A stretch of 51,826 nt of DNA from a virus. Position 1 is the stretch's first letter. Every line of letters begins with the position of its first letter. Position numbers and translations under genes: made by a program. This document shows positions 24,643-51,767 of this stretch, in pieces. The stretch lies in the IMG/VR virus record IMGVR_UViG_3300025010_000080, positions 1 through 51,826 of that record; one strand, given 5' to 3'. The notes under the pieces are model-generated. The model ran no database searches, was not told where the DNA came from, and was given only the letters and a program-made list of their open reading frames with translations.

Positions 24643-24667
24643 TCGCGATAATAACACACGTTATAAT
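24643..24667 (+). promoter_or_regulatory. Island promoter 1
   Basis: Box TCGCGATAATAACA, five bases, TATAAT. This copy is unusual in also having a fair -35 (TTGATC at 24639-24644, 17-bp spacer), and it is the first promoter after the lysis genes. Confidence 0.8.
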
Positions 24668-24700
24668 GAAAGATGGAGGTCTTGAAGGGAGAGGCATAAT

Positions 24701-25027: not shown

Positions 25028-25052
25028 TCGCGTAGAATACATAGCCTATAAT
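25028..25052 (+). promoter_or_regulatory. Island promoter 2
   Basis: Box TCGCGTAGAATACA, five bases, TATAAT, then GAAA. No TTGACA-like -35. Confidence 0.85.
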
Positions 25053-25077
25053 GAAATATGTTATAGGAGGTTTAATT

Positions 25078-25362: not shown

Positions 25363-25387
25363 TCGCGTAGGATACATATGTTATAAT
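25363..25387 (+). promoter_or_regulatory. Island promoter 3
   Basis: Box TCGCGTAGGATACA, five bases, TATAAT. It abuts the preceding T-tract. Confidence 0.85.
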
Positions 25388-25420
25388 GACAATTGTATGT
25401 TAATTTAAGGAGGAATATGT

Positions 25421-25609: not shown

Positions 25610-25621
25610 GCTTTCTTTTTT
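25600..25621 (+). terminator. Terminator GGAAGC-TTAG-GCTTTC with stop in loop
   Basis: Six-base-pair stem with one G-U pair, TTAG loop containing the TAG stop (25607-25609), then a T-tract that runs directly into the next promoter box. Confidence 0.85.
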
Positions 25622-25645
25622 CGCGTAGATTACATACGCTATAAT
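25621..25645 (+). promoter_or_regulatory. Island promoter 4
   Basis: Box TCGCGTAGATTACA, five bases, TATAAT. The -35 position falls on the T-tract of the upstream terminator (TTTTTC). Confidence 0.85.
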
Positions 25646-25673
25646 GAAAGATATTCTTGAAGGAGGAAATGTT

Positions 25674-25876: not shown

Positions 25877-25901
25877 TCGCGTAGATTACACATCCTATAA
25901 T
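25877..25901 (+). promoter_or_regulatory. Island promoter 5
   Basis: Box TCGCGTAGATTACA, five bases, TATAAT. Confidence 0.85.
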
Positions 25902-25930
25902 GAAATATAATCTTAAAAGGAGTGAATAAA

Positions 25931-26129: not shown

Positions 26130-26154
26130 TCGCGTAGGATACGTACGCTATAAT
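26130..26154 (+). promoter_or_regulatory. Island promoter 6
   Basis: Box TCGCGTAGGATACG, five bases, TATAAT. Confidence 0.85.
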
Positions 26155-26181
26155 GAAACTATATTTTTGAAAGGTGAGGTT

Positions 26182-26330: not shown

Positions 26331-26355
26331 TCGCGTAGATTACATAGCCTATAAT
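26331..26355 (+). promoter_or_regulatory. Island promoter 7
   Basis: Box TCGCGTAGATTACA, five bases, TATAAT. Confidence 0.85.
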
Positions 26356-26383
26356 GAAATAGAATCTTGAAAGGAGAATTCAT

Positions 26384-28205: not shown

Positions 28206-28230
28206 TCGCGTAGGATACGTACGTTATAAT
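28206..28230 (+). promoter_or_regulatory. Island promoter 8
   Basis: Box TCGCGTAGGATACG, five bases, TATAAT. Confidence 0.85.
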
Positions 28231-28262
28231 GAAATAAAACATATTTGAAAGGGGTTTATACT

Positions 28263-28753: not shown

Positions 28754-28778
28754 TCGCGTAGAATACATACGTTATAAT
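28754..28778 (+). promoter_or_regulatory. Island promoter 9
   Basis: Box TCGCGTAGAATACA, five bases, TATAAT. Confidence 0.85.
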
Positions 28779-28806
28779 GAAAATAAATTTTAAGGAGTTG
28801 TTTGAT

Positions 28807-28948: not shown

Positions 28949-28973
28949 TCGCTGAATTTACACACCCTATAAT
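28949..28973 (+). promoter_or_regulatory. Island promoter 10
   Basis: Variant box TCGCTGAATTTACA, five bases, TATAAT. Confidence 0.75.
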
Positions 28974-28999
28974 GAAGGAATTTTTAGGAGGGAATGCGG

Positions 29000-29183: not shown

Positions 29184-29208
29184 TCGCGTAGGATACACGC
29201 CTTATAGT
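29184..29208 (+). promoter_or_regulatory. Island promoter 11
   Basis: Box TCGCGTAGGATACA, five bases, TATAGT (weaker -10). Confidence 0.8.
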
Positions 29209-29227
29209 GAAAGAGAGGTATTATATT

Positions 29228-29560: not shown

Positions 29561-29584
29561 GGAAGTTAACAGCTTTCTTTTTTT
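29561..29584 (+). terminator. Terminator GGAAG/CTTTC
   Basis: GGAAG (29561-29565) pairs with CTTTC (29573-29577) around TTAACAG; seven T residues follow. The stop codon is upstream of it in this case. Confidence 0.75.
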
Positions 29585-29608
29585 CGCGTAGGATACACAT
29601 GTTATAAT
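29584..29608 (+). promoter_or_regulatory. Island promoter 12
   Basis: Box TCGCGTAGGATACA, five bases, TATAAT. Confidence 0.85.
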
Positions 29609-29643
29609 GAAAATAAAACATATTTTTGAGAGGAGAAATGGTT

Positions 29644-29863: not shown

Positions 29864-29888
29864 TCGCGTAGAATACACACCTTATAAT
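29864..29888 (+). promoter_or_regulatory. Island promoter 13
   Basis: Box TCGCGTAGAATACA, five bases, TATAAT. Confidence 0.85.
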
Positions 29889-29913
29889 GAAAGAATTTGA
29901 AGGGGGAATTATT

Positions 29914-30163: not shown

Positions 30164-30188
30164 TCGCGTAGGACACATATCCTATAAC
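30164..30188 (+). promoter_or_regulatory. Island promoter 14
   Basis: Box TCGCGTAGGACACA, five bases, TATAAC. Confidence 0.8.
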
Positions 30189-30216
30189 GAAAGAAATTTG
30201 AGGAGGGGTAATAAAT

Positions 30217-30448: not shown

Positions 30449-30473
30449 TCGCAGAGATTACATACATTATAAT
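30449..30473 (+). promoter_or_regulatory. Island promoter 15
   Basis: Variant box TCGCAGAGATTACA, five bases, TATAAT. Confidence 0.75.
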
Positions 30474-30499
30474 GAAAGAATTTGGAGGAGGAATTCATT

Positions 30500-30769: not shown

Positions 30770-30794
30770 TCGCAGGATTTACACACGTTATAAT
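30770..30794 (+). promoter_or_regulatory. Island promoter 16 (leader-type variant)
   Basis: Box TCGCAGGATTTACA, five bases, TATAAT. This box form recurs at 31217 and 31953, and none of the three is followed directly by a normal gene. Confidence 0.75.
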
Positions 30795-30800
30795 GAAAGA

Positions 30801-30919: not shown

Positions 30920-30944
30920 TCGTGTAAAATACATACGATATAAT
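30920..30944 (+). promoter_or_regulatory. Island promoter 17
   Basis: Variant box TCGTGTAAAATACA, five bases, TATAAT. Confidence 0.75.
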
Positions 30945-30970
30945 GAAAGAATTTGAAGGGGGTAAACACC

Positions 30971-31215: not shown

Positions 31216-31216
31216 C

Positions 31217-31241
31217 TCGCAGGATTTACACACGTTATAAT
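31217..31241 (+). promoter_or_regulatory. Island promoter 18 (leader-type variant)
   Basis: Box TCGCAGGATTTACA, five bases, TATAAT. Only a ribosome site (GGAGGAG) and then a terminator follow, with no room for a gene. Confidence 0.75.
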
Positions 31242-31255
31242 GAAAGAAATTGGAG

Positions 31256-31299: not shown

Positions 31300-31648
31300 T
31301 GGAAAAGGTAAAAGTAGTACAGGAAAAGCGTATTTGTATTTATTATCGAATGGTCAGTTAAAAACTCATGAAGGATTAGTACAAACGTGTATTTACACAA
31401 ATCATAACAATGTGGCTACATTTGTAGCTAAAAGATTAAGATTTACATGTTCCGCCGAATTAGGTGTAGTTCATAATTCAGTTGTATGGTTTGCAGAACA
31501 AAATGACGAATATGCGAAAACAATATTGATAGAGTATGAGGAGGCGGCAATATTGGTATTACAAGCGCGTATTGATAATCATTTACAGAAGATTCAGGCG
31601 TTGAAAGCGAATATTCATAAACTTAAAAGTAATTTAGTTCCTCGCTGA
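31300..31648 (+). pseudogene. Small island gene apparently broken by a frameshift
   Basis: ATG 31300 has a good GAAGGGGG site but stops after 20 codons (MEKVKVVQEKRICIYYRMVS). The +1 frame then continues with protein-like sequence for ~95 codons (QLKTHEGLVQTCIYTNHNN, WFAEQNDEYAKTILIEYEEA, a helical end) and has no good start of its own. A one-base change near 31350-31360 would join them. It could be a decayed gene, a programmed +1 shift or a sequencing error. The end of the second frame overlaps promoter 19, which also suggests loss of its original 3' end. Confidence 0.55.
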
Positions 31649-31666
31649 AAATACACATGCTATAAT
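31642..31666 (+). promoter_or_regulatory. Island promoter 19
   Basis: Variant box TCGCTGAAAATACA, five bases, TATAAT. It overlaps the stop of the frameshifted ORF. Confidence 0.75.
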
Positions 31667-31692
31667 GAAAATAAATTTTAGGAGGAATTATC

Positions 31693-31949: not shown

Positions 31950-31952
31950 ACC

Positions 31953-31977
31953 TCGCAGGATTTACATACGTTATAAT
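31953..31977 (+). promoter_or_regulatory. Island promoter 20 (leader-type variant)
   Basis: Box TCGCAGGATTTACA, five bases, TATAAT. Directly precedes a compact structured RNA. Confidence 0.75.
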
Positions 31978-31978
31978 G

Positions 31979-32046
31979 AAAGGGAAGAGCGTTGAATAGC
32001 GATTCAACCTGAGTTGAGAATCACTCAGGACTATCCTTTTTATTTT
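31979..32046 (+). ncRNA. Compact structured RNA (two perfect hairpins in a closing stem) or attenuator
   Basis: Two perfect hairpins lie side by side: GTTGAAT-AGCG-ATTCAAC (31991-32008) and CTGAGT-TGAGAATC-ACTCAG (32009-32028). AAAGG at 31979-31983 can pair with CCTTT at 32035-32039 to enclose both, giving a three-way junction, and TTTTTATTTTT ends it. No ORF fits inside. The next gene starts 18 bases later, so this is either a free small RNA or a regulatory leader for that gene. Confidence 0.55.
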
Positions 32047-32063
32047 TGAAGGGGGATATCACT

Positions 32064-32273: not shown

Positions 32274-32312
32274 TTAGCTCTTATCGATATATTTGAAGAG
32301 GAGGAATATATT

Positions 32313-32510: not shown

Positions 32511-32520
32511 GACTCCTTTT
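32500..32520 (+). terminator. Terminator AGTCC-AATTA-GGACT with stop in loop
   Basis: Perfect five-base-pair stem with the TAG (32508-32510) beginning in the loop, then CCTTTTAATT. The T-tract is short. Confidence 0.7.
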
Positions 32521-32546
32521 AATTATTTAGAACGGAGGATATTATT

Positions 32547-33335: not shown

Positions 33336-33347
33336 GAGGGATTTCAA

Positions 33348-33536: not shown

Positions 33537-33564
33537 ACAGATTAAGGTGTAAGGTGGTGTCATT

Positions 33565-33684
33565 ATGAAATTTAATATTCCTGAGGCTACTAAATTTGGA
33601 AAAGTTTGTGGATATACAATCATATCCTCAATTACAGCATGTATTGTTGCTGTGACTGTAAAATTTATTATATGGTTGTTTTAA
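33565..33684 (+). CDS. Very small membrane protein (39 residues)
   Basis: ATG 33565 (AAGGTGG upstream) opens 39 codons: MKFNIPEATKFGKV followed by a membrane helix YTIISSITACIVAVTV and the end KFIIWLF. Promoter 21 begins four bases after its stop, with no terminator between. Function unknown. Confidence 0.55.
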   Translation: MKFNIPEATKFGKVCGYTIISSITACIVAVTVKFIIWLF

Positions 33685-33687
33685 CCC

Positions 33688-33712
33688 TCGCGGTAATTAC
33701 ACATGTTATAAT
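33688..33712 (+). promoter_or_regulatory. Island promoter 21
   Basis: Variant box TCGCGGTAATTACA, five bases, TATAAT. Confidence 0.8.
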
Positions 33713-33747
33713 GAAACTAAACTGTATTTTTGAAAGGGGATATCATT

Positions 33748-33948
33748 ATGTTAAATGGATTTGGTGCAATTATCAAAGCAAATAAGAAGGCGATCATTAA
33801 GAATGCGTTAATTATCGGAGGAACCATAGCTGGACTAGCAATAGCAACAGTGATGGTTAAGTCGAGAAATGACGAGTCTGATGAAGTCAACTTGGATGTT
33901 GATGTGGAAATTGAAGAACTGAACATACTTGACACTGATGCCGAGTAA
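33748..33948 (+). CDS. Single-span membrane protein with acidic tail (island family A-like)
   Basis: A 66-residue protein from ATG 33748 (GAAAGGGG upstream). It repeats the island layout: ANKKAIIKNALIIGG, a membrane helix (~20-36) and a strongly acidic C-terminus (DESDEVNLDVDVEIEELN). The NK--I-KN motif before the helix is shared with the 25674 and 25931 products. Function unknown. Confidence 0.65.
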   Translation: MLNGFGAIIKANKKAIIKNALIIGGTIAGLAIATVMVKSRNDESDEVNLDVDVEIEELNILDTDAE

Positions 33949-33968
33949 GAAAAGGTTAGGAGGATGGG

Positions 33969-33999
33969 GAGTGTTATGTTACATAGCACTCTTTTTTTC
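33969..33999 (+). terminator. Terminator GAGTGTTATG-TTA-CATAGCACTC
   Basis: Ten-base-pair stem with one G-U pair, three-base loop and seven T residues. Confidence 0.9.
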
Positions 34000-34025
34000 T
34001 TCAACAGATTAAGGAGGACATACAT

Positions 34026-34583
34026 ATGAAAATTAGTTTTTTAAAAATCAAAGGGGATTGGCAAGAGGTTAAAGATGCCGCAATGACTACTATTGGCAAG
34101 GATGCAGGGGCTACTCCGTCTAGTGAATGGAAAAGAAGGATGTTACTTTGTGAGCATTCTCCGATACGGAAATTGATTGTTAAGTGGAAATGGACCAGTA
34201 TATTTTGGTGGGTGCAAACTCACTTTACAAGACATCATGTCGGCGTTGAATGGCACGTGCCCACAAGTAGGACCGATAGAACTGGCATTGACCGCACTGA
34301 AGAAGGGTCACAAAGTAATCTTATATCGGTTGAAGGTGAAGCTAACGCGCAGGCCATCATTAATATATCTAGGAGACGGCTTTGTATGCTGGCTAGTAAA
34401 GAGACTAGGGAAGCTTGGATAGTGTTTTTGATGAGACTAAGCACATATGAACCTGAATTAGCAAGAGTATCTGTTCCAGACTGTGTTTATAGAGGATACT
34501 GTTACGAATACAAGACTTGTGGTTACTTTACAACCAAAGCATATCAAATGGAACTCGAACGTTATAGAAAGGACATAAACTAA
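34026..34583 (+). CDS. ThyX-like (flavin-dependent thymidylate synthase family) protein
   Basis: A 185-residue protein. LLCEHSPI, then THFTRHHVGVEWHVPTSRTDR (~66-86) lines up with the ThyX signature region in which RHR-x7-S contacts FAD and dUMP, and NISRRRLCMLASKETREAW (~113-131) matches the second conserved substrate helix. The signature is degenerate: RHH replaces RHR. It may make dTMP with dUMP from the phage dCMP deaminase, or have a changed role. AAGGAGG precedes ATG 34026, and its stop overlaps the next start. The family call is by pattern only. Confidence 0.55.
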   Translation: MKISFLKIKGDWQEVKDAAMTTIGKDAGATPSSEWKRRMLLCEHSPIRKLIVKWKWTSIFWWVQTHFTRHHVGVEWHVPTSRTDRTGIDRTEEGSQSNLISVEGEANAQAIINISRRRLCMLASKETREAWIVFLMRLSTYEPELARVSVPDCVYRGYCYEYKTCGYFTTKAYQMELERYRKDIN

Positions 34584-35059
34584 TGAAGACTTATCTTAAT
34601 CGATCGGAGAAAAATCAAGTGTTAACTTTAACAGGATTTATGGATTACGTAACTAACACTGCCAATGAATGGGCTAAAATAGGACGTAATAAAGATTCTG
34701 TTAAGTTTCTTCGAATGGCTAAATCATTTATATTTAGATCATTATGTATGAAGTGCGAAAAGTTAGACGATTTAGAACAAGATAATCTAAAGACCGAGTC
34801 AAAGAAAATGAATGTTGTATTGAAGTATAAAGATGATGCCGTTCGTGAATACAAGCAAATGCTAGAACTTGATAGCGTCACTCCTGTTCAAACTTCTGAT
34901 TTACTCGATTTGTGCGAGAAGGCGTTAGAGGCTTGTAAGGACTGTTCCGAAATAGCGAGCACCTGTAAGGTTCGTACGTTATTTGTTAAGTACGATATTC
35001 CTGTGAATCCCGATAGCGTTGGGGTTGAAAAATGTCCTTATTATTTCAAGGAGGATTAG
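34583..35059 (+). CDS. DUF5651-like conserved phage protein
   Basis: A 158-residue mostly helical protein (MKTYLNRSEKNQVLTLTGFM start, ~25 charged residues in the middle, a CEKALEACKDC pair and the end VEKCPYYFKED). The start resembles DUF5651 proteins of Firmicutes phages. Six to seven cysteines near both ends could bind metal. It overlaps the ThyX-like stop by one base (TAATG), so it is co-translated. Function unknown. Confidence 0.55.
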   Translation: MKTYLNRSEKNQVLTLTGFMDYVTNTANEWAKIGRNKDSVKFLRMAKSFIFRSLCMKCEKLDDLEQDNLKTESKKMNVVLKYKDDAVREYKQMLELDSVTPVQTSDLLDLCEKALEACKDCSEIASTCKVRTLFVKYDIPVNPDSVGVEKCPYYFKED

Positions 35060-35062
35060 AAT

Positions 35063-35446
35063 ATGTATAAGTGTGAGGATTGTGGAGTAACATTTGAATC
35101 TCCTGTTTTTAGTTTTACCACTAACACTATTGATTTTTGTGGGGTTCCTAGAAAAATAACCGAGGTTAACCTAGGACGCGATTATAATGCATGTCCTGGG
35201 TGTGGCTCAATATCTTTTACGCCTATTTCCGCCTCAACAATCAGTTATGTGGACCCAAAGCCTAAGGAAGAAGTAGTTACATTAATCATCACCAAGCATA
35301 AAAATTTTAAAAACAAAATGTATGGATGGGGTGTCATAATTGCTGGTATAGCCTCCATTTTCATAAGTAAGGATGCTACGATATTTATTATGGGTTTAAT
35401 GGTCGGACTGCCTATATTATTCGCTAAAGAAAATCTATTCATTTAA
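35063..35446 (+). CDS. Zinc-ribbon protein with C-terminal membrane segments
   Basis: A 127-residue protein with CEDC (4-7) and CPGC (44-47) forming a zinc ribbon, and two hydrophobic segments at ~88-104 and ~108-121 (GWGVIIAGIASIFI, IFIMGLMVGLPILFA). Between the cysteine pairs lies TIDFCGVPRKITEV. Almost the same phrase occurs in the 36983 product (TIDFCGVPTKINDV). It may be a membrane-tethered sensor or adaptor. AAGGAGG precedes ATG 35063. Function unknown. Confidence 0.6.
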   Translation: MYKCEDCGVTFESPVFSFTTNTIDFCGVPRKITEVNLGRDYNACPGCGSISFTPISASTISYVDPKPKEEVVTLIITKHKNFKNKMYGWGVIIAGIASIFISKDATIFIMGLMVGLPILFAKENLFI

Positions 35447-35448
35447 CA

Positions 35449-35473
35449 TCGCGTAGGTTACATATGCTATAAT
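35449..35473 (+). promoter_or_regulatory. Island promoter 22
   Basis: Box TCGCGTAGGTTACA, five bases, TATAAT. It is the last copy in the small-gene island; the next two are 12 kb away. Confidence 0.85.
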
Positions 35474-35508
35474 GAAATAGTATGTTAAATCTTGAAGGGA
35501 GAATCATC

Positions 35509-35773: not shown

Positions 35774-35977
35774 ATGAAAACATGGTATTTATCTTTTTTG
35801 AATGGAGTTTTGATTTTATATAAATGCGTCGCGTGTTTAAAATGTTTGGACTTGGGTGTATCATATTGTATACACAATGACGAAGAATTGAAAGGGGTAA
35901 CAGCATGGACTTTCCATCCAATGCCCATAAAAACCGTGAAAAAAAAGAAGAGCCTAAAAAGATCGAAAAGGTTGTAA
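35774..35977 (+). CDS. Doubtful small ORF
   Basis: ATG 35774 opens 67 codons with a hydrophobic start and CVAC / CLD cysteines, then a lysine-rich end. There is no clear ribosome site, and its last third overlaps the well-supported gene at 35905 in another frame. It may be spurious; I list it only because the 35749-35904 stretch has nothing else. Confidence 0.2.
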   Translation: MKTWYLSFLNGVLILYKCVACLKCLDLGVSYCIHNDEELKGVTAWTFHPMPIKTVKKKKSLKRSKRL

Positions 35978-36513
35978 CCGGTAAGGTTGTTACTAGAAAA
36001 AAACCATTAGGTAAACGTATCCTGGAAACATTTGTGGGGGAAGACGTAGGTAACGTATATTCTTACGTATTATATGACGTTTTGATACCTGCGGCTAAAA
36101 GTATGATCTATGACTCGGTAAAGGGTGGCTTAGAAATGAGACTCTTTGGTGAGAAACAAGGATCTAGAACCAGGAGAGACCAAGGACGATCATACGTCAG
36201 CTATAACAACTACTCTGACTCACGCAGACACTCTGAGAGGCGCGAAATGACCAATCAGAACCGAGCAAGACATAACTTCGAGGAGATCATCCTAGACAGT
36301 CGTGGAGAGGCTGAGGAGGTGCTTAGCCACCTTGTAGACTTGATCGTAGATTACGGACAGGCTACTGTTTCTGATCTGTATGATCTTGTTGGTATTGCCG
36401 AGAACTTTACAGATCGTAAATATGGCTGGGTCGATCTTAGAAACGCCAGTGTTGGCGGCAGAACACGTGATGGGTATTTGTTGAATCTCCCGAGACCTAT
36501 TTTGTTGGATTAG
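35905..36513 (+). CDS. Conserved phage protein of unknown function
   Basis: A 202-residue protein with a basic, lysine-rich N-terminus (~1-40), then VGEDVGNVYSYVLYDVLIPA and VKGGLEMRLFGE, a disordered arginine/serine linker (~85-120) and a C-terminal domain (EIILDSRGEAEEVLSHLVDL, YGWVDLRNASV, then GYLLNLPRP). I recognise this architecture as widespread in Firmicutes phages near replication genes, but without known function. The basic and disordered parts suggest nucleic-acid or protein scaffolding. GAAAGGGG precedes ATG 35905. Confidence 0.7.
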   Translation: MDFPSNAHKNREKKEEPKKIEKVVTGKVVTRKKPLGKRILETFVGEDVGNVYSYVLYDVLIPAAKSMIYDSVKGGLEMRLFGEKQGSRTRRDQGRSYVSYNNYSDSRRHSERREMTNQNRARHNFEEIILDSRGEAEEVLSHLVDLIVDYGQATVSDLYDLVGIAENFTDRKYGWVDLRNASVGGRTRDGYLLNLPRPILLD

Positions 36514-37577: not shown

Positions 37578-37946
37578 ATGGCCTCTGGGATTAAAATTAA
37601 TGAGGAGAAAGCAACTAAATTGTGGCAGGACGGACTCCTCGATAGAGATATTGCTAGGATACTAAAATGTCGAGAAAGCAGTATCTGGAACTGGCGTAAG
37701 AAGCGTGGTATGAGTAGTAATAAAAATGTTTTTGATCGGAAAGAGGTACGAAACACGTTAATGATTAGTGAAAATTATATATTTAACATCGGAATAGACA
37801 TTAACGGTCATCAAGCTATATTAACCATTGCCAAGTATGTTGGCTCAAAAATGGTAATCGTGAACACTCTGACCGGCGAGGAAGCCGTGTCTTTGTACGA
37901 GGAAATGACCGATACGAAACTTGAAAGGGGAAATAAAAATGTTTAA
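37578..37946 (+). CDS. Helix-turn-helix DNA-binding protein
   Basis: A 122-residue protein with GGAGGG before ATG 37578. Residues ~8-45 fit a resolvase-type helix-turn-helix (KATKLWQDGLLDRDIARILK then CRESSIWNWRKKRG). The C-terminal half is a small alpha/beta domain (NIGIDINGHQAILTIAKYVG). It could act on phage promoters, and is a candidate for the factor that reads the 14-bp island box; that link is an inference only. It overlaps the next gene by eight bases. Confidence 0.65.
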   Translation: MASGIKINEEKATKLWQDGLLDRDIARILKCRESSIWNWRKKRGMSSNKNVFDRKEVRNTLMISENYIFNIGIDINGHQAILTIAKYVGSKMVIVNTLTGEEAVSLYEEMTDTKLERGNKNV

Positions 37947-38850
37947 ACTTGTAGTATTAAAAACCGTATTTAACCGTACGACAGGACGTAGCCTCCTGCT
38001 TCTAAAAAAACACAGCCCAGAGATCTTGATGGGGGTTGGTGTTATTGGGACTGTAGTTAGCACCGTTATGGCTTGTAAGGCTACATTAAAGGCTGAGGAT
38101 ATTATTGTTGAGGCTAAAGAGAAGCTTGAGAAGGTTAAACACGTTAACGAGACAGTCGATAAAGAGAAATACACAGAACTCGATTACAAGAAAGATCTGA
38201 CTGTTGTGTACGCTCAAACAGCCGTGGACTTTATTAAACTCTATGGACCATCATTAGTAATTGGCTTGTCTGCTATCGGATGTATGCTCAGTGCTCACGG
38301 GATTATGCGGAAACGTAATCTCGCTATAATAGCAGCGTATAAGGCTGTTGAGGAAAGCTTTGCTAAATATCGTAAGCGTGTTGTAGAAGATTGGGGAATC
38401 GAGAAGGATTTTGAATACAAGAATGGTATCCGGCATACACTGGTTAATGAACTTGATGATGAAGGCAAGCCTACTGAAAAGATCAATGTGGTAACGACGC
38501 AAGATCCAAATGGGTATAGTCAATACGCTCGATTCTTTGATGAGGCCAGTACTCAATGGCAGAAACTCCCTGAGTACAATCAGATGTTCCTAAAATGTCA
38601 ACAGAACCATGCTAATGATCTTTTGCATTCTCGTGGGCATGTCTTCTTGAATGAGATATACGATATGATTGGCGTACCTAGATCTAAAGAAGGTGCTGTT
38701 GTTGGTTGGGTTAGAGGTGCTGGTGATGATTTTGTAGACTTTGGTATATTCACTAACGACAACGAACGGGTACGTGACTTCGTGAACGGGTATAATCGTA
38801 GTATTCTGCTCGACTTCAATGTTGACGGGGTTATATACGACTTGATTTGA
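37939..38850 (+). CDS. DUF6353 family membrane protein (copy 2)
   Basis: A 303-residue protein from ATG 37939 (GAAAGGGG upstream). Hydrophobic spans at ~24-44 (HSPEILMGVGVIGTVVSTVM) and ~100-120 (LVIGLSAIGCMLSAHGIM) are separated by charged helix. The C-terminal part has HVFLNEIYDMIG and GWVRG. It is a paralogue of the 32547 product. The two may form a heteromer in the membrane. The following 122 bases to the next gene hold no gene that I can support. Confidence 0.75.
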   Translation: MFKLVVLKTVFNRTTGRSLLLLKKHSPEILMGVGVIGTVVSTVMACKATLKAEDIIVEAKEKLEKVKHVNETVDKEKYTELDYKKDLTVVYAQTAVDFIKLYGPSLVIGLSAIGCMLSAHGIMRKRNLAIIAAYKAVEESFAKYRKRVVEDWGIEKDFEYKNGIRHTLVNELDDEGKPTEKINVVTTQDPNGYSQYARFFDEASTQWQKLPEYNQMFLKCQQNHANDLLHSRGHVFLNEIYDMIGVPRSKEGAVVGWVRGAGDDFVDFGIFTNDNERVRDFVNGYNRSILLDFNVDGVIYDLI

Positions 38851-41334: not shown

Positions 41335-41359
41335 AGACGTTTTGAGAGGAGATTCCAAT

Positions 41360-44300
41360 GTGGATTTTTACCAAATCAAGGAGAGGAGTACTAAGAACGG
41401 CGTCATAGAAATATATCCAGATTTTAAGGTATGCCGATCAAAAGATTTAATGGTTAGGGGAAGATCGTTCTACGCCATATGGGACGAAGGACGGGGGCTA
41501 TGGTCTACTGACGAATATGACGTACAAAGACTCGTTGACGCCGATCTTATGGCTTATCGAGAAAAGCTAGTAGTAAACACTTCTGGTATGGTTCAGGTTA
41601 AATTAATGAGTGACTTCTCTAGTAAGTCCTGGGTGGATTTTAAAAGTTACATGAGTCATATTTCAGATAGCTCAATTCAATTAGATACCAAACTAACTTT
41701 TTCAAATACAGATGTAAAGAAGAAAGACTACGTAAGTCGAAGATTGAGTTATCCATTAGAGGAGGGTAAATATGGAGCGTTTGACGAACTTATCGGAGTT
41801 TTATATGACCCAGAAGAACGCGCAAAGATTGAGTGGGCTATTGGCGCAGTTGTGTCGGGCGATGCAAAAGATATCCAAAAGTTTCTTGTCTTTTATGGCG
41901 AAGCTGGAGCCGGTAAATCCACCATCCTTAATATTATCCAACAATTATTCTTGGGATATTATACGACGTTCGAAGCGAAGGCGCTCACGTCGTCAGGTAA
42001 CGCATTTGCGACCGAAGTGTTCAAAGCGAACCCACTTGTCGCAATACAACATGATGGTGACCTGTCGAAGATTGAAGATAATACGAAACTTAACTCGATC
42101 ATTTCTCACGAAGAAATGACAATGAATGAGAAGTATAAACCCTCCTACATGGCTAGGGTGAACTGCTTCTTATTTATGGCCACTAATCGCCCAGTAAAGA
42201 TTACTGACGCTAAGTCTGGAATTATTCGTAGATTGATCGACGTTAAGCCTTCTGGTAGGAAGCTACCTTCGAATAAGTATCACTCATTAATGTCTCAGAT
42301 CGATTTTGAGTTGGGCGGTATCGCTAACCATTGTCTCGATGTGTATAGAGAGATGGGTAAGAACTATTATTCGGCTTATCGCCCACTTGATATGATACTT
42401 CAAACTGACGTGTTCTTCAATTTTGTGGAGTCTAATTATGACACGTTCAAATCACAAGACAGCGCAACTTTATCTCAAGCTTATGAGATGTATAAAACTT
42501 ATTGCTCCGACTCACTAATTGAGTACAAGGCGCCAAGACATAAATTCAGGGAAGAGTTTAAGAATTACTTTGCTAGTTTCTCGGAGGTTGCCCGCGTTGA
42601 TGGAGCACAAATAAGGAGTTATTACTCTGGGTTCTTATCTAGTAAATTTATAACTGCTGTAGCACCAAAAGAAGAAACGTTAAACTCGTTAGTTCTCGAT
42701 TGTGTTGAGTCATTGTTTGACGATGTATGCTGTAGTTGTCCAGCCCAATACGCTAGTTCAACTGATAAACCAATTATGAAGTGGGCAGAAGTCGGAACTA
42801 CCTTATCCCAAATAAACACAAGTAAACTTCATTATGTTAAAGTCCCAGAGAATCATATTGTTATAGATTTTGATTTGAAGGATAATAATGGCGAGAAATC
42901 TATCGAAAAGAATATCGAAGCGGCTAGTAAATGGCCAGCTACATATGCTGAATTTAGTAAAAGTGGCGGTGGCCTACATCTGCATTATATTTATGACGGT
43001 GATACCAATAAACTTAGTCGGGTATATTCGGAAGGAATAGAAATTAAAGTATCTGTTGGTGATGGTTCGCTGAGAAGAAAACTGAGTAAGTGCAACAATA
43101 TACCAATAGCCACTATAAATTCTGGATTACCATTTAGGGAGGAAAAGATGATTAACTTTGACGCGGTAAAGAGTGAAAAGTCACTTCGCGAATTGTTAAA
43201 GCGAAACCTCAATAAGGAGATTCATCCAGGAACTAAGCCTAGTATCGATTTTATCCATAAAATTTTAGGGGACAGTTACGAGTCGGGGCTTAGGTATGAC
43301 GTTACTGACATGCGACCTCGTATTCTAGCTTTTGCTAACAATAGTCATAACCAAGCAGACTATTGCATCAAGTTAGTATCCAAGATGCAGTTCAAATCAG
43401 AAGAAGCTAGTGTATCACCAGAAGCTTATGAGAAAGATGAATTGGTATTCTTTGATGTTGAGGTGTTTCCAAATCTATTTGTGGTCGTTTGGAAATTCAA
43501 AGGTAAAGATAAAGAAAAAGTAAAAATGATTAATCCATCTCCTACGGCTATCGAAGAACTCATGAAACTTAGGCTTATAGGATTTAACTGTAGAAGATAT
43601 GATAACCATATTTTGTATGGAGCATACATCGGTCTTAATAATCAACAGTTATACCAATTAAGTCAACGGATTATCAGTGGTAGTAAAAATGCCATGTTCG
43701 GCGAAGCTTATAACATATCATATACCGACGTTTATGATTTTGCGTCAGCAGGAAACAAGATGAGTCTTAAGAAATGGGAAATCAAACTTGATATACACCA
43801 TCAGGAGTTAGGTCTTCCATGGGATAAGGAAGTCCCAGAAGCAAAATGGGAAATAGTCGCTGATTATTGCGGAAACGACGTCGATGCCACAGAAGACACT
43901 TTTAATCACTTGGCTGGCGACTGGGCCGTAAGACAAATTCTTGCGGAATTAAGTGGTCTAACTGTAAATGACACAACGAATCAGCACACCATAAAGATTG
44001 TATTCGGAAATAACAAACACCCACAGGACGAATTGGTATACACGGATTTGAGTGTTATGTTTCCTGGATACGAGTTTAAAAATGGTAAAAGCTATTACCG
44101 AGGAATCGAAGTTGGAGAAGGCGGTTATGTTCATGGCGAACCTGGAATGTATATAAATTCTCCAGTTGCAGACGTAGCCTCAATCCATCCAACTAGTGTG
44201 GAAGAATTAAACTTACTTGGTCCATATACTAAAAACTACAGTGAACTTAAACAAGGGCGAATAGCTATCAAACATAAAGATTTTGATACATTAATGACGC

Positions 44301-45286
44301 TGTTAAGTGGTCGTCTTATTCCGTTCATAGAAAACGCACTTAGCGATAATCCTAGATTCACTTTAAAAGATGTGTCTAATGGGTTAAAAACTGCGCTTAA
44401 TTCTGCTTATGGATTAACCTCGGCTAAATTTGATAATCCATTTAGAGATCCTCGAAATGTGGATAACATTGTTGCTAAACGCGGAGCACTATTTATGATT
44501 GACCTTCAATTCGCGGTCCAAGAGAAAGGATTTCAGGTTGCCCATATTAAGACCGACTCTATTAAGATTCCAAATGCTACAGATGAAATAATGGAATTTG
44601 TTATAGAGTTTGGTAAGAAATATGGGTATAATTTTGAGATCGAAGATATCTATAGTCGCTTCTGTCTCGTAAACGACGCAGTATATATTGCTCGAATTGA
44701 TGATTGGGAAAATAGCAAAGACAAGGATTTGATAAGAGCAAACGGATGGACCGCAACTGGAGCTCAATTCGCTCATCCATATGTATTTAAGACCTTGTTT
44801 AGTAAAGAGCCAATCACATTCAAAGATATGCGCGAAACCAAATCGGTAACTACTGCTATATATCTTGATATGAATGAGGGGCTTAAGGAAGACGAACATG
44901 AGTATCATTTCGTAGGAAAAGTTGGATCATTCTGTCCAATCAAACCTGGTAGAGGAGGGGGAGTGTTACTTCGCGAGAAAGAAGATAAGTATTATGCGGT
45001 CTCAGGTAGTAAGGGATATCGATGGCTTGAAGCTGAGGTTGTGGAGACTCTAGGAAAACAAGAGGATGTTGATCGCTCATATTATAAGTCATTGGTCGAC
45101 GATGCTGTAGCAAACATTTCAAAGTTTGGAGATTTCGAATGGTTCGTTTCGGAAGATGCTGAATATGGATGGCCAGAGTGTAACTTAAATGGTCGCTCAA
45201 CTATATGTTCAGAATGTGAGAATTGGATTAATGAGCCATCAAAACCAACCGAATGTAAACTGGGATTCGATTGTATGCCGTTTTGA
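41360..45286 (+). CDS. SF3 helicase - AEP-type primase - family B DNA polymerase fusion
   Basis: A 1308-residue protein from GTG 41360, eight bases after AGAGGAG; the ATG overlapping it is out of frame. SF3/D5-like helicase: Walker A GEAGAGKST (180-188), HDGDL (~228-232) and FLFMATNRP (~270). Archaeo-eukaryotic primase-like motifs: IDFDLKD with D503 and D505, GGGLHLHY with H540/H542, and a later EIKV. Polymerase B exonuclease: FFDVEVF with D699/E701, FNCRRYDNHILY, and YCGNDVDA with D840. Polymerase motifs: A D938-VASIHP, B LNSAYG (~1012-1018), C KTDS with D1066. A C-terminal cysteine cluster (CSEC, CKLGFDC) may bind zinc. One polypeptide could unwind, prime and copy DNA. The motifs are seen directly; joint activity is inferred. 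Confidence 0.85.
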   Translation: MDFYQIKERSTKNGVIEIYPDFKVCRSKDLMVRGRSFYAIWDEGRGLWSTDEYDVQRLVDADLMAYREKLVVNTSGMVQVKLMSDFSSKSWVDFKSYMSHISDSSIQLDTKLTFSNTDVKKKDYVSRRLSYPLEEGKYGAFDELIGVLYDPEERAKIEWAIGAVVSGDAKDIQKFLVFYGEAGAGKSTILNIIQQLFLGYYTTFEAKALTSSGNAFATEVFKANPLVAIQHDGDLSKIEDNTKLNSIISHEEMTMNEKYKPSYMARVNCFLFMATNRPVKITDAKSGIIRRLIDVKPSGRKLPSNKYHSLMSQIDFELGGIANHCLDVYREMGKNYYSAYRPLDMILQTDVFFNFVESNYDTFKSQDSATLSQAYEMYKTYCSDSLIEYKAPRHKFREEFKNYFASFSEVARVDGAQIRSYYSGFLSSKFITAVAPKEETLNSLVLDCVESLFDDVCCSCPAQYASSTDKPIMKWAEVGTTLSQINTSKLHYVKVPENHIVIDFDLKDNNGEKSIEKNIEAASKWPATYAEFSKSGGGLHLHYIYDGDTNKLSRVYSEGIEIKVSVGDGSLRRKLSKCNNIPIATINSGLPFREEKMINFDAVKSEKSLRELLKRNLNKEIHPGTKPSIDFIHKILGDSYESGLRYDVTDMRPRILAFANNSHNQADYCIKLVSKMQFKSEEASVSPEAYEKDELVFFDVEVFPNLFVVVWKFKGKDKEKVKMINPSPTAIEELMKLRLIGFNCRRYDNHILYGAYIGLNNQQLYQLSQRIISGSKNAMFGEAYNISYTDVYDFASAGNKMSLKKWEIKLDIHHQELGLPWDKEVPEAKWEIVADYCGNDVDATEDTFNHLAGDWAVRQILAELSGLTVNDTTNQHTIKIVFGNNKHPQDELVYTDLSVMFPGYEFKNGKSYYRGIEVGEGGYVHGEPGMYINSPVADVASIHPTSVEELNLLGPYTKNYSELKQGRIAIKHKDFDTLMTLLSGRLIPFIENALSDNPRFTLKDVSNGLKTALNSAYGLTSAKFDNPFRDPRNVDNIVAKRGALFMIDLQFAVQEKGFQVAHIKTDSIKIPNATDEIMEFVIEFGKKYGYNFEIEDIYSRFCLVNDAVYIARIDDWENSKDKDLIRANGWTATGAQFAHPYVFKTLFSKEPITFKDMRETKSVTTAIYLDMNEGLKEDEHEYHFVGKVGSFCPIKPGRGGGVLLREKEDKYYAVSGSKGYRWLEAEVVETLGKQEDVDRSYYKSLVDDAVANISKFGDFEWFVSEDAEYGWPECNLNGRSTICSECENWINEPSKPTECKLGFDCMPF

Positions 45287-47560: not shown

Positions 47561-47585
47561 TCGCGCGAACAACATATGCTATAAT
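47561..47585 (+). promoter_or_regulatory. Island-type promoter 23
   Basis: Variant box TCGCGCGAACAACA, five bases, TATAAT, then AGGGAG instead of GAAA. It precedes the tRNA-like RNA. Confidence 0.75.
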
Positions 47586-47689
47586 AGGGAGATAGCTCAA
47601 TGGTAACTAGAGTTCTGAAAAGAATTGACGGAGCGTTATTGGGGAGAGCAACCGAGAGGTATGTTGTAGGTTCGAATCCTACTCTCTTT
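47586..47689 (+). ncRNA. tRNA-like RNA lacking a canonical anticodon arm
   Basis: The 3' part has a textbook T arm, GTAGG-TTCGAAT-CCTAC (47666-47682), followed by TCTCTTT, which can pair with AGGGAGA at 47586-47592 with G-U pairs. The 5' part reads TAGCTCAATGGTA like a D arm. Its partner GAGC lies 40 bases later (47646-47649). Then ACC-GAGA-GGT with a GNRA loop stands where a 17-base anticodon arm should be. The total of 104 bases and these gaps rule out an ordinary tRNA. The expected start of transcription (~47592) would remove the 5' acceptor strand. TTTTTT after the T arm would terminate transcription. Confidence 0.5.
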
Positions 47690-47695
47690 TTTACC

Positions 47696-47720
47696 TCGCG
47701 TGAAAAACATATGCTATAAT
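47696..47720 (+). promoter_or_regulatory. Island-type promoter 24
   Basis: Variant box TCGCGTGAAAAACA, five bases, TATAAT, then AGAGG. It starts seven bases after the tRNA-like RNA. Confidence 0.75.
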
Positions 47721-47747
47721 AGAGGAGATATGCCTCTTTTTATTTTT
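47721..47747 (+). terminator. Hairpin terminator directly at the start of transcript 24
   Basis: AGAGG (47721-47725), loop AGATATG and CCTCT (47733-47737) with TTTTATTTTT after. It lies at or just after +1, so it would give a very short RNA or attenuate expression of the nuclease genes downstream. Confidence 0.7.
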
Positions 47748-47767: not shown

Positions 47768-48085
47768 ATGTTAGAAAGTGCATTTCAGGCCACTCTCATT
47801 AAAGAACTTGAAACGTTGTTTGTTGGTTGTGTAATTTTAAAAAATGATGCTAACTACATTCAAGGGTTTCCTGATTTATTAATTTTATATAAAGATCATT
47901 GGGCTGTCTTAGAATGCAAGCAAAACGCAAAATCTAAATTTCAACCAAACCAAGAATACTATCTCGAATTACTTGACGGTATGTCATATGCAAGCGTTAT
48001 TTATCCAGAAATAAAAGAGGAGGTATTACATGAACTTCAAAAAGCATTTGGACATCGACGGACAACACGCATTCCTAAGCGCTAG
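47768..48085 (+). CDS. VRR-NUC-type nuclease
   Basis: A 105-residue PD-(D/E)XK nuclease with GFPDLLILYKDHWAVLECKQ: D36 and E49-C-K51 form the active site, and the small size is normal for phage VRR-NUC proteins, which act on branched DNA. GGCGGTGA precedes ATG 47768. Its last 56 bases overlap the next nuclease gene in another frame, so the two are tightly coupled. Confidence 0.8.
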   Translation: MLESAFQATLIKELETLFVGCVILKNDANYIQGFPDLLILYKDHWAVLECKQNAKSKFQPNQEYYLELLDGMSYASVIYPEIKEEVLHELQKAFGHRRTTRIPKR

Positions 48086-48584
48086 TAAATACCACTGGGT
48101 AAATTATGATACTGAGAAACTTGCTATGTCGTACTCAAAATATTTGGCGGCACAACGAGGAACTCGACTTCATGAATTTGCACACGAATGTATACAACTC
48201 GGTATCAAACTTCCTAAAACCAAGAAGACTCTAAACCTTTATATCAATGACGCTATCGGCTACAAAATGACAACGGAACAAATATTATATTATTCTGAAA
48301 ATTGTTTTGGAACTGCTGATGCTATAGCGTTTCGTCAAAACATTCTTAGGATTCATGATCTCAAGAATGGTTCTACACCAGCGTCATTTCGTCAGCTCGA
48401 AATCTATGCTGCTTTATTTTGTCTAGAGTATAACATAAAACCGGAGACAATAACTATAGAGCTTAGACTTTATCAATTAGATGAGATACTAATTCATGAG
48501 CCACTGCCTGAAGACATTCTCTACATAATGGATAAAATCATAATGTTTGATAAGCAGCTAGATAAAATTAAGATGGGAGAATGA
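48030..48584 (+). CDS. PD-(D/E)XK nuclease, Cas4/RecB-like
   Basis: A 184-residue protein from ATG 48030 with AGAGGAGG upstream. H48 (GTRLHEFAH), D97 (GTADAIAF), D110-L-K112 (IHDLKNG) and Q122/Y126 (RQLEIYA) fit the RecB-type nuclease motif series. No cysteine cluster for an iron-sulphur site is seen, so it is RecB-like rather than true Cas4. It may process DNA ends during phage recombination or packaging. Confidence 0.75.
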   Translation: MNFKKHLDIDGQHAFLSASKYHWVNYDTEKLAMSYSKYLAAQRGTRLHEFAHECIQLGIKLPKTKKTLNLYINDAIGYKMTTEQILYYSENCFGTADAIAFRQNILRIHDLKNGSTPASFRQLEIYAALFCLEYNIKPETITIELRLYQLDEILIHEPLPEDILYIMDKIIMFDKQLDKIKMGE

Positions 48585-48586
48585 CC

Positions 48587-51508
48587 ATGCCTAATGAGAT
48601 ATTGCATTATGGGACCCCCCACCATTCGGGCCGATATCCATGGGGATCTGGAGATGACCCTCAACAGAGGAATAAAAGTTTTCTTGGATATGTCGACGAT
48701 CTAAAAAAGAAAGGCGTTAGTGATGTTGATATATGTAAAGGTCTTGGTATAACTACTCAACAGCTTCGAGCTAGAAAGTCAATAGCTAAATCCGAATTAC
48801 GTAAAGCGGATGTCGCACAAGCAATCAAACTAAGAGATAAAGGTTATTCTAATGTGGCTGCTGGAAAACGTATGGGTATTAACGAATCGTCTTTTAGAGC
48901 GTTACTTGATAAAGCAATTCAAGAGCGTTCAACCATAACCGAGTCAACGGCTAACATGCTTAAAGAAAATGTTGAAAAAAAAGGTTATATTGATGTTGGG
49001 GTTGGAACCGAAAGACATATAGGTATAAGTAGAACCAAATTAAAAACCTCAATTGAAATGTTAAAAGCGGAAGGCTATATCGTTAGTTACAATCAGGTAG
49101 AACAACTTGGAACTGGGAAAAAGACATCTGTAATGGTTTTATCTAAACCAGAAAAAGCTCAGACCAGAGCTATTTTTAAATTAAAAAATTCAGGATATTC
49201 TGATTCCGACATTGCTAAAGAACTTAATATTAGTGAATCGAAAGTTACTTCATCGATGAAAGAAGCATATTCAAAAGCGTATAAAAACACCGATAATATT
49301 AAAACGATTACAGATCATTCCGAAGATGGTGGTAGATCGTTTCTAGGCCTTGAACCTATACGAAGCGTTAATTCAAACAAGGTACATATCCGGTATAGGG
49401 AAGAAGGCGGCTCTGATAAAGATGGCGTAATCGAATTGAGAAAAGGTATTGAAGAGTTATCTTTAGGCAAATCTAAGTATGCACAAGTTCGTATCGGTGT
49501 CGATGGAACTCATTATATGAAAGGAATGGCTATGTATAGTGATGATGTTCCAAAAGGAGCTGACATCATATACAATACCAATAAACCAAAGGGTACCGAT
49601 CCAAAGAAAGTTTTTAAAGAAATGAAAGATGATCCCGATAATCCTTTTGGAGCAGTCGTTAGACAACAGCATCATATAACTGAAGACGGAAAGAAGAACC
49701 CTAATTCGTCTGATATGTTAGAGCTAAAACGGAATGGTTTATCATACGATCAAATAGCTAAAAAAATGAACTTATCGGAAGCACTTGTTAAATCTTGTAT
49801 TGGTGTAAAAGCATTAAATATTGTCAACGAAGAAGGCGAATGGCAAGAAAAATGGTCTAAAAGTTTATCTTCACAAATGTTATCGAAACAAACGCCAAGC
49901 CTTGCGAAGAGACAATTAGGATTAACTTATGCTGCCAAAAAAGAAGAATTCGATGAGATCGTAGCATTAAACAACCCTGTAGTTAAAAAGAGACTTTTTG
50001 ATTCGTTCGCCGATGATTGTGATTCAGCGGCCGTTCATCTGAAAGCGGCAGCACTCCCTAGAGAAGGTTGGCATGTTATTCTACCGTTTCCTGGAATGAA
50101 GGAAAATGAAATATTTGCGCCTAATTACGACAATGGCGAACGAGTGGTTCTTATTAGATATCCGCATGGTGGAATATTCGAGATCCCAGAATTAGTAGTC
50201 AATAATAGGTATGCGCCAGCTAAGAATTCAATTGGGCAAGCAAAGGATGCCGTTGGGATTAATCATAAAGTAGCAGAGAGATTATCTGGGGCAGACTTTG
50301 ACGGAGACACAGTACTTGTTATACCGAACCCTCCAAGTGTTGGTATTAAAACTAAATCGCCATTAAAAGGTCTTAAAGACTTCGATCCTAAAATTAGCTA
50401 TAAACCTTATGATGGTATGAGAACTATCGATGGTGGAACATATAACGAGAAGACTGGTAAAGTTGACTATGGTGGGAAACGTCCAATAACCCGAACAATG
50501 CAATTAAAAATGGGAGATGTGTCAAATCTAATAACCGACATGACCATTAGAGGGGCAAATGATGACGACGTAGCTGCCGCTGTAAGACATTCAATGGTCA
50601 TCATCGATTCAACGAAACATAGTCTTAACTACACGCAATCTTATAAAGATAACGGGATCGCTAAGCTTAAAGAGCGATATCAAGGTTCTAAAAGTAGTGG
50701 GGCGTCTACTCTTATTTCTAAAGCGTCTTCGGAAACATCGGTTGGTTTTAGAAAGTTAAAAACCAACACTAAGAAGATGACTCCGGAAGAATTAGCTCGA
50801 TACAACTCTGGTGAAAAAGTTTATTCGTACACAGATGAAACCTATACTAATAAGAAAGGTAAAGCGGTGTCCCGTAAAACGGCATCTAAGAAGATGGCCG
50901 AGGTAAGTGACGCGTTTACCCTATCTTCCGGGACAAGAATGGAAACCGTATATGCTACTCATGCAAATAGTTTAAAAGCTCTTGCTAATACGGCCAGGAA
51001 AGAATCGTTAAGTACTAGACCTATCGCTTACTCCCCTTCGGCTAAGAAAGCTTATGCTCCTGAAGTAGCATCGTTAACTGCGCATTTAAACATAGCGCTA
51101 AAGAATGCGCCATTAGAAAGACAGGCCCAGATATTAGCTAACACTGTGGTTTCGGCTAAACGAGCGGCGAATCCTGATATGGATTCCTCTGATATTAAAA
51201 AGATTAAAGGTCAAGCTCTTGCTGAAGCTAGAACCAGGGTTGGTGCAAAGAAACAACGTATTGAAATCACAGACCGAGAGTGGGAAGCTATTCAATCAGG
51301 AGCAGTTAGCACTAATACTTTAGCTCAGATTCTAAGTAATACTGACCTAAACAAAGTTAAACAATTAGCTACGCCTAGAACTAGCTCTTCGTTGACTAAA
51401 GCCAAACAAGCAAAGGCTGAGCTAATGCTTGCTGCTGGTTACACTCAAGCCGAAATTGCCAATCATCTTGGTGTATCTGCATCGACAATATCTAAACTAA
51501 TACAATGA
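48587..51508 (+). CDS. YonO-like single-subunit RNA polymerase with several helix-turn-helix segments
   Basis: A 973-residue protein from ATG 48587, eight bases after GGGAG; ATG 48581 is too close. Residues 570-574 are DFDGD within ERLSGADFDGDTVLVIPN, the metal-binding signature of double-psi beta-barrel RNA polymerases, in the form seen in YonO of phage SPbeta. RYPHGGIFEIPEL and DAVGIN upstream match that family. Helix-turn-helix segments lie near 37-67, 78-109, 195-225, 376-405 and at the very C-terminus (~944-973, GYTQAEIANHLGVSASTISKL). It may transcribe part of the phage genome. The catalytic motif is visible; promoter choice and the use of the HTH segments are inference. Confidence 0.75.
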   Translation: MPNEILHYGTPHHSGRYPWGSGDDPQQRNKSFLGYVDDLKKKGVSDVDICKGLGITTQQLRARKSIAKSELRKADVAQAIKLRDKGYSNVAAGKRMGINESSFRALLDKAIQERSTITESTANMLKENVEKKGYIDVGVGTERHIGISRTKLKTSIEMLKAEGYIVSYNQVEQLGTGKKTSVMVLSKPEKAQTRAIFKLKNSGYSDSDIAKELNISESKVTSSMKEAYSKAYKNTDNIKTITDHSEDGGRSFLGLEPIRSVNSNKVHIRYREEGGSDKDGVIELRKGIEELSLGKSKYAQVRIGVDGTHYMKGMAMYSDDVPKGADIIYNTNKPKGTDPKKVFKEMKDDPDNPFGAVVRQQHHITEDGKKNPNSSDMLELKRNGLSYDQIAKKMNLSEALVKSCIGVKALNIVNEEGEWQEKWSKSLSSQMLSKQTPSLAKRQLGLTYAAKKEEFDEIVALNNPVVKKRLFDSFADDCDSAAVHLKAAALPREGWHVILPFPGMKENEIFAPNYDNGERVVLIRYPHGGIFEIPELVVNNRYAPAKNSIGQAKDAVGINHKVAERLSGADFDGDTVLVIPNPPSVGIKTKSPLKGLKDFDPKISYKPYDGMRTIDGGTYNEKTGKVDYGGKRPITRTMQLKMGDVSNLITDMTIRGANDDDVAAAVRHSMVIIDSTKHSLNYTQSYKDNGIAKLKERYQGSKSSGASTLISKASSETSVGFRKLKTNTKKMTPEELARYNSGEKVYSYTDETYTNKKGKAVSRKTASKKMAEVSDAFTLSSGTRMETVYATHANSLKALANTARKESLSTRPIAYSPSAKKAYAPEVASLTAHLNIALKNAPLERQAQILANTVVSAKRAANPDMDSSDIKKIKGQALAEARTRVGAKKQRIEITDREWEAIQSGAVSTNTLAQILSNTDLNKVKQLATPRTSSSLTKAKQAKAELMLAAGYTQAEIANHLGVSASTISKLIQ

Positions 51509-51527: not shown

Positions 51528-51767
51528 ATGAATCAATCCATGTTAACAACTATTGATAATCCATTTGATCCATTCACGCAGTTTGATGAATGGATGGCGT
51601 TTGATGAAGATAAAGGTTATCATTCAAGTGCGTATCTCGCTAGAATAGTGAAGTCGTCAGACGATTTAAGTGAAGCTGATCAGGACATTGCTATCGAGTT
51701 AGCTATTGACGAAATCGTTGAGCTCAACATTCTTGGTATATACAAAAAAGTAACAATGGATCAGTAA
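51528..51767 (+). CDS. Small conserved phage protein of unknown function
   Basis: A 79-residue acidic protein with GAAAGGAT before ATG 51528. DNPFDPFTQFDEWMAFDEDKG, AYLARI and DQDIAIELAIDEIVELNILG form a pattern I know from many Firmicutes phages just before the packaging genes. Function is unknown to me; position suggests a link to late regulation or packaging. Confidence 0.7.
   Translation: MNQSMLTTIDNPFDPFTQFDEWMAFDEDKGYHSSAYLARIVKSSDDLSEADQDIAIELAIDEIVELNILGIYKKVTMDQ

Follow-up and report, generated by a model that had tools for sequence, protein, structure and literature searches.

A single-chain two-barrel phage RNA polymerase with a head-protein-like tag, and a repeated early promoter that it may read

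The window, by which we mean the whole 51,826-base virus record IMGVR_UViG_3300025010_000080, encodes on its plus strand, at 48581..51508, a 975-residue protein of the single-chain two-barrel RNA polymerase (RNAP) superfamily, and carries 24 copies of a candidate promoter, nearly all of them before early genes. The reading that we favor, at a probability of roughly one half, is that this RNAP is packaged by way of an N-terminal tag, injected, and active first at the early promoters and then at its own operon. The RNAP would be a DNA-dependent enzyme of the superfamily that includes QDE-1, YonO and the polymerases of phage P23-45; its N-terminal peptide would sort it into the phage head alongside other proteins with tags of the Pfam family DUF7211; it would enter the cell with the injected DNA and initiate at the element TCGC-N5-TTACAYrCCYTATAATGAAA before early genes; and the copy of this element before the operon of the RNAP would result in self-activation. 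The more general proposal, that the whole RNAP family is sorted to the head by a tag shared with DUF7211, injected, and active without a sigma factor on a dedicated promoter, so that one promoter–enzyme pair serves phages of Firmicutes and Actinobacteria alike, is a tentative one, with chances slightly short of even.

The gene is an intact open reading frame (ORF) with its start at 48581, an earlier note on this DNA having taken the second ATG at 48587, and it matches over its full length the PHROGs profile phrog_4291, 'RNA-dependent RNA polymerase' (E = 0, 1233 bits). Homologues are present in 250 of 50,697 phage records, 249 of them spanning at least 80% of the length, and they are mostly annotated as helix-turn-helix (HTH) or hypothetical proteins, and in some cases as RNA-dependent RNA polymerase. 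Because a direct search of the sequence against solved structures gave no match, a comparison of folds was needed, based on AlphaFold models of the whole protein (predicted local distance difference test, pLDDT, 77.7) and of the core, residues 251-626 (pLDDT 90.5; predicted template modeling score, pTM, 0.83). The whole-protein model matched QDE-1 over residues 258-814 (Z 14.1-14.2), and the core model matched QDE-1 residues 681-1032 over its residues 260-597 (Z 15.4, 251 residues, 3.7 Å), with both barrels covered. The first of these is a beta-type double-psi barrel at residues 264-417 (49370..49831, +), delimited by homologue alignment, core model and fold comparison, and the other is a beta-prime-type double-psi barrel at residues 490-585 (50048..50335, +), delimited by both models and fold comparison. 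The second barrel on which the earlier note had let its polymerase assignment depend is thus present. The catalytic DFDGD motif, given there as 570-574, corresponds to residues 572-576 in the 975-residue numbering (50294..50308, +); in the homologue alignment, its aspartates show no variation in 111 of 111 sequences, and the same holds for R304, K314, K346 and R526. By the models, R304, K314 and K346, which lie in the barrel that accompanies the one with the triad, are candidate basic catalytic residues. Cellular beta-prime chains aligned with the core mainly on the second (beta-prime-type) barrel (Z 9.4-10.0), and P23-45 gp64 and P74-26 gp62 matched it with Z 11.6-11.8. With the DxDxD triad and a second double-psi barrel both found, the protein is a member of the single-chain two-barrel RNAP superfamily, and 48581-51508 very probably encodes an active DNA-dependent RNAP. 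Judged from the models, its closest fold relative is QDE-1, which together with the plant RDR2 gave the best match over both barrels (Z 14-15); these are, however, eukaryotic RNA-silencing enzymes without the phage tag and without significant sequence similarity to the RNAP. An operon shared with an endonuclease and an exonuclease would also suit a packaged protein that primes replication or recombination, or that has lost its polymerase activity, with HTH segments that merely hold DNA, but this is very improbable in view of the active-site residues, unchanged throughout the 111 homologues, and of the primase that the replicase of this lineage already contains (GP55 of phage 1706, PMC12205980).

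The protein had been described in the earlier note as YonO-like, which was correct in that it is a single-chain double-psi-barrel enzyme with HTH modules, but not as regards the family: YonO and its relatives match phrog_8308, the tblastn matches of the two are disjoint, and membership of the YonO family was rejected. YonO of SPbeta shares the single chain, the two barrels and a DxDGD triad, and there is a distant profile match near the triad, as a profile of 27 RNAP homologues aligned with six YonO relatives over 80 columns around it (hhalign, probability 55%, E 1.2e-4); a profile comparison with a single YonO sequence failed (probability 2.4%). YonO differs in its separate sequence family, in the lack of the HYG tag described below, in that no such promoter was found in the 30-kb SPbeta segment searched, and in its reported transcription of late genes. 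YonO is the published model of such enzymes, and the work on it did not settle its promoter or whether it requires further factors (PMC5467207).

The candidate promoter (aligned form TCGCGTAGRWTACAYAYGYTATAATGAAA) occurs in the window 24 times on the plus strand and not at all on the minus strand or in Markov sequence, and its spacing is invariable. Copies 1 to 22 lie at 24.6-35.5 kb, before early genes, and 19 of these 22 end 19-35 nucleotides (nt) upstream of an ORF with a Shine-Dalgarno sequence. Their positions, all on the plus strand, are 24643..24671, 25028..25056, 25363..25391, 25621..25649, 25877..25905, 26130..26158, 26331..26359, 28206..28234, 28754..28782, 28949..28977, 29184..29212, 29584..29612, 29864..29892, 30164..30192, 30449..30477, 30770..30798, 30920..30948, 31217..31245, 31642..31670, 31953..31981, 33688..33716 and 35449..35477. 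The two others, likewise on the plus strand, are copy 23 (47561..47589), which precedes a tRNA-like element, and copy 24 (47696..47724), which precedes the endonuclease–exonuclease–RNAP operon. Copies 3, 8 and 14 were found by alignment of the element alone, and all others also by a leave-one-phage-out matrix, which is trained without the phage under test. Compared with a sigma-70 promoter, the early element has the TATAAT, no TTGACA at 16-18 nt and no conserved −35 hexamer, and it has two extra boxes, TCGC and TTACA, with a spacing that is fixed. Many copies directly follow, on the 3′ side, a terminator-like hairpin with a T run, and the early region 24600-35500 is built of repeated units, each consisting of such a hairpin (GGAAGCTTAGGCTTTC plus T run), a promoter and a single small gene. 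Right behind copy 23, the tRNA-like element at 47586-47690 scores 37.1 bits with the Rfam tRNA model (cut-off 29 bits); its D arm holds an insert of 41 nt, its anticodon arm is reduced to a stub, and it was missed by ARAGORN. Immediately after copy 24, another hairpin with a T run (47721-47737, within 47715-47740) looks as though it might produce a very short transcript, or serve as an attenuator, ahead of the RNAP operon.

The promoter element also occurs in phages that infect Lactococcus, Arthrobacter, Rhodococcus, Gordonia and Streptomyces, with genomes that range from 33 to 61% G+C. The leave-one-phage-out matrix detected 21 sites in the window, 8 in 1706, 12 in P162, 7 in Mudcat, 13 in Poco6, 9 in Duffington and 6 in Moozy, and none on any minus strand or in the 30-kb SPbeta segment, and a copy precedes the nuclease–RNAP operon also in Mudcat, Duffington and Moozy. 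When 2.9 million viral contigs were scanned with the promoter pattern, 69 stretches were obtained; 36 of the contigs fetched in this way reach 32 kb or more, and 31 of these 36 encode the RNAP. The remaining five, which are shorter than complete phages, may be fragments. In 26 contigs chosen by their RNAP, the core pattern gave 64 matches as compared with 5 for a reversed control, and 63 of the 64 are on the strand of the RNAP. A blastn search with the promoter against the 50,697 phages returned 219 records from the same groups as those of the RNAP, apart from five Bacillus records; the two Bacillus matches among those listed are weak. Records with promoter and with RNAP number 55 and 55 in Gordonia, 54 and 54 in Streptomyces, and 4 and 4 in Rhodococcus. 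What the computation establishes is an association of the promoter with this phage lineage, and we consider it rather likely that the repeated promoter is read by this RNAP.

As to how the RNAP could reach the cell, its residues 1-31 are predicted to be disordered (pLDDT <50 in the AlphaFold model), and they include the tag LHYGTPHHSGRYPWGSG at residues 8-24 (48602..48652, +; model and homologue alignment), which is kept in 109 of 111 homologues. In residues 8-25, identity within the family reaches 90% or more in 11 of 18 columns, a share that exceeds that of every HTH. The tag pattern of the RNAP family is LxHYG...SGRYPWGSG, and its first half, [ED]D[YF]LAHYG[IV], resembles DUF7211 (PF23847; here LxHYGVKGMKWG), tags of which type mark many head-region proteins of phages in this group. 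A strict DUF7211-type pattern identified 53 tags in 49 ORFs of 28 loci, where none are expected from shuffling; in the RNAP loci, all but one of these tags lie downstream of the RNAP and on the same strand, and ReqiPepy6 has eight tagged proteins in its head region, one of them labeled structural. A local tag profile, trained without the RNAP tags and searched against 6,861 ORFs (115 of them RNAPs), placed the RNAP N-termini directly behind the true tags; after removal of 13 true tag variants, the matches at E<10 comprised 46 RNAPs and 3 other ORFs. In the original deposit of phage 1706, the RNAP homologue orf75 is named 'structural protein', as is orf7, the bearer of two DUF7211-type tags, and structural labels are also given to the small ORFs 62 and 71, which are remote from the head genes and therefore suggest that the labels derive from virion proteomics; a virion analysis of 1706 was reportedly published by Garneau and colleagues in 2008. 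The conserved tag and the 1706 label point to packaging of the RNAP in the virion, which we regard as probable. Neither the tag letters nor DUF7211 turned up in the literature searched. The tag also occurs behind 2H-phosphoesterase/2′-5′ RNA ligase domains in two loci (L048:15390-16271 and L118:10645-12273), and since such enzymes include counter-defence proteins, it is conceivable that these tagged proteins are injected counter-defence cargo.

The earlier claim of up to five HTH segments held (Pfam HTH, sigma-r4 and resolvase-HTH matches, and helices in the model), and a winged HTH comes in addition. Family-wide are HTH 1 at residues 34-70 (48680..48790, +; model and homologue alignment), HTH 2 at residues 79-109 (48815..48907, +) and the C-terminal HTH at residues 938-974 (51392..51502, +), the latter two by Pfam match, model and homologue alignment, and also the winged HTH at residues 111-188 (48911..49144, +), which shows helices and then two strands in the model and is supported by the homologue alignment. 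HTH 3 at residues 193-232 (49157..49276, +; Pfam match and homologue alignment) is an insertion found in 4 of 111 homologues, and HTH 4 at residues 375-407 (49703..49801, +; Pfam match, core model and alignment) interrupts the beta-type barrel between its last strands in 6 of 111. Segments are thus seen at both termini, as had been stated, but these two are internal; by their distribution among the homologous sequences they look like recent, lineage-specific insertions, and the view that all five are a family trait was rejected. Reading of the promoter throughout the family would therefore fall to the winged HTH and those three HTHs that are conserved. In our proposal, the N-terminal HTH pair, the winged HTH and the C-terminal HTH would recognize the TCGC and TTACA boxes at their fixed spacing, so that a sigma factor would be unnecessary. 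The idea that the HTH segments confer promoter choice on the enzyme gains support from the candidate promoter, though for two of the five segments it is qualified by their recent insertion.

The late operons, which had been suggested as targets, indeed lack obvious strong sigma promoters, as their 54 sigma-70 sites hardly differ from the 52.8 expected by shuffling, but the candidate promoter precedes early genes and the RNAP operon rather than a late operon. In six phages, it was not found at the left end, where the late genes lie, and with no sigma-70 excess in the late region either, the late operons were rejected as targets. The location of the RNAP gene is relevant here. Its stop codon is 318 bases from the window end, exactly the same distance is found in three related contigs, of which one has a 100% identical RNAP, and in 53 of 109 RNAP contigs the end lies 261-441 bases past the stop; the corresponding end of ReqiPoco6 carries a cos end annotation, and the final 40 bases of the window are similar to the right ends of other phages in the group. 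We infer from this that only one gene separates the RNAP from the right end of the linear genome. Such a place, just ahead of the genome end that joins the late genes, would also be apt for an RNAP that is made during infection, remains unpackaged and uses one or a few promoters to serve the late operon while the host polymerase transcribes the early genes, much as YonO transcribes the late operon of SPbeta in vivo (PMC5467207). We nevertheless judge this unlikely, as the left ends of the six related phages are devoid of the site, the phage-specific promoter is an early one and was not found in the SPbeta segment, and the 1706 homologue bears a structural label. If, as we favor, the RNAP is an injected early enzyme, late genes would be transcribed otherwise, by read-through from the genome-end operon or by the host polymerase.

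Several observations weigh against the injected RNAP as reader of the early promoter. The 46 RNAP rows of the tag-profile search are mutually homologous and not independent; with the Pfam model of DUF7211, 3 of 10 RNAP N-termini matched at E 0.009-0.02, under the cut-off, so that the kinship of the two tags is a matter of reasoning; and 'structural protein' for 1706 orf75 is the depositors' label only. With the RNAP at the right genome end, the terminase–portal region of the window phage falls outside the contig. The promoter is inherited along with the RNAP, the DNA polymerase and some two dozen further proteins, and the DNA polymerase delimits the same phages as the RNAP does (252 full-length records as compared with 250 for the RNAP), so that from the association alone the RNAP cannot be named as the reader. 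The Faecalibacterium phage FP_oengus (L129) has the RNAP but not the promoter; it has three loose look-alikes without TATAAT, such as CGCGATAAAAACATGCCCTTTTATG, at record positions 8246, 22540 and 27684, the last of which precedes the RNAP operon with CTTTTATG in place of TATAAT, and this case speaks either for a co-evolved specificity or for a weakening of our claim. Finally, most phages have at the −10 a TATAAT that agrees perfectly with sigma-A, as would suit the host polymerase.

Since TATAAT is such a good −10, the main rival is a host sigma-A polymerase that reads the early promoter together with a lineage-wide phage activator bound to TCGC/TTACA, with the RNAP employed elsewhere, for example in late transcription. 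T4 MotA is a parallel, as a phage activator that acts at middle promoters. Nearly all copies have the TATAAT, and candidates for the activator are available among uncharacterized core proteins, namely the protein of 35905-36513, which is common to 8 of 8 phages compared and is probably a homologue of 1706 orf43, the DUF6353 paralogue pair (phrog_2152; 32547-33335 and 37921-38850), also present in 8 of 8, and the 79-residue protein of 51528-51767. However, these four proteins have no recognized DNA-binding domain, and among the scanned proteins common to the eight phages, recognized HTH domains are found in the RNAP alone. The fixed 28-nt layout and the missing −35 hexamer also argue against the activator, as does the −10 of two Lactococcus phages of the same host species, which is TATAGT in 11 of 12 copies of 1706 and TATAAT in 12 of 12 copies of P162; such a uniform difference is unlike a pure host-sigma site. 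Early promoters are, moreover, needed before phage protein synthesis, a problem that a packaged RNAP would solve. We therefore consider the activator a serious but somewhat unlikely explanation.

Lactococcus phage 1706 orf75 and the actinophage 'HTH DNA-binding' proteins of phrog_4291 are full-length homologues with 38-53% identity that have the tag and the genome-end position of the window RNAP and differ in annotation only; in the papers searched, no description of a promoter, tag or transcription role was found, and the promoter goes unmentioned in papers on phages of Arthrobacter, Gordonia and Microbacterium. Injected two-barrel RNAPs are already known from P23-45 and crAss-like phages, and a single-chain phage RNAP from YonO. 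Thermus phage P23-45 has two such single-chain two-barrel enzymes, the non-virion gp64 and the virion gp96, and the virion RNAP serves pre-early genes (PMC10770324). In gp96, the enzyme forms a fusion with the tail tape measure protein, whereas in the window RNAP a short head-protein-like tag would sort the enzyme. The virion-packaged two-barrel RNAP gp66 of the crAss-like phage phi14:2 (PDB 6vr4) gave a weak Foldseek match (E 0.03). It comprises about 2,170 residues, as compared with 975 in the window. We know of no HYG tag in gp66. Judged by the papers searched, what is new is a promoter candidate common to the family, the relatedness of the RNAP tag to the tags of head proteins, and hence the proposal that phrog_4291 has an early role. 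If our reading is true, hundreds of phage genes annotated as 'HTH DNA-binding protein' or 'RNA-dependent RNA polymerase' would encode injected early RNA polymerases, a small sigma-independent promoter–enzyme pair would be at hand for expression work, and DUF7211 would gain a meaning as a head-cargo tag. The candidate promoter is available as an exact sequence with many natural variants, and among the phages that have it, 1706, Mudcat, Duffington and Moozy are cultured laboratory phages.

The operon that closes with the RNAP opens with a VRR-type endonuclease gene (47768..48085, +; phrog_93), followed by a Cas4/RecB-like exonuclease gene (48030..48584, +; phrog_3953) that overlaps the RNAP start. 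On its other side, the RNAP adjoins the gene of the 79-residue protein (51528..51767, +; phrog_4303), homologues of which occur in 8 of 8 phages compared, including 1706_gp76. The DNA polymerase gene (phrog_4210) at 41342-45286 apparently encodes a homologue of the four-in-one replicase GP55 of phage 1706 (PMC12205980). An integrase gene on the minus strand at 21034-22017 indicates that the window phage is probably temperate. The left end of the window lies within the head maturation protease gene, and the terminase/portal part is, given the RNAP at the right genome end, absent from the contig. Internal direct repeats are seen in a tail protein gene (16233-16548; 142 nt, 78%) and in the tape measure gene (7323-7570; 77 nt, 73%).

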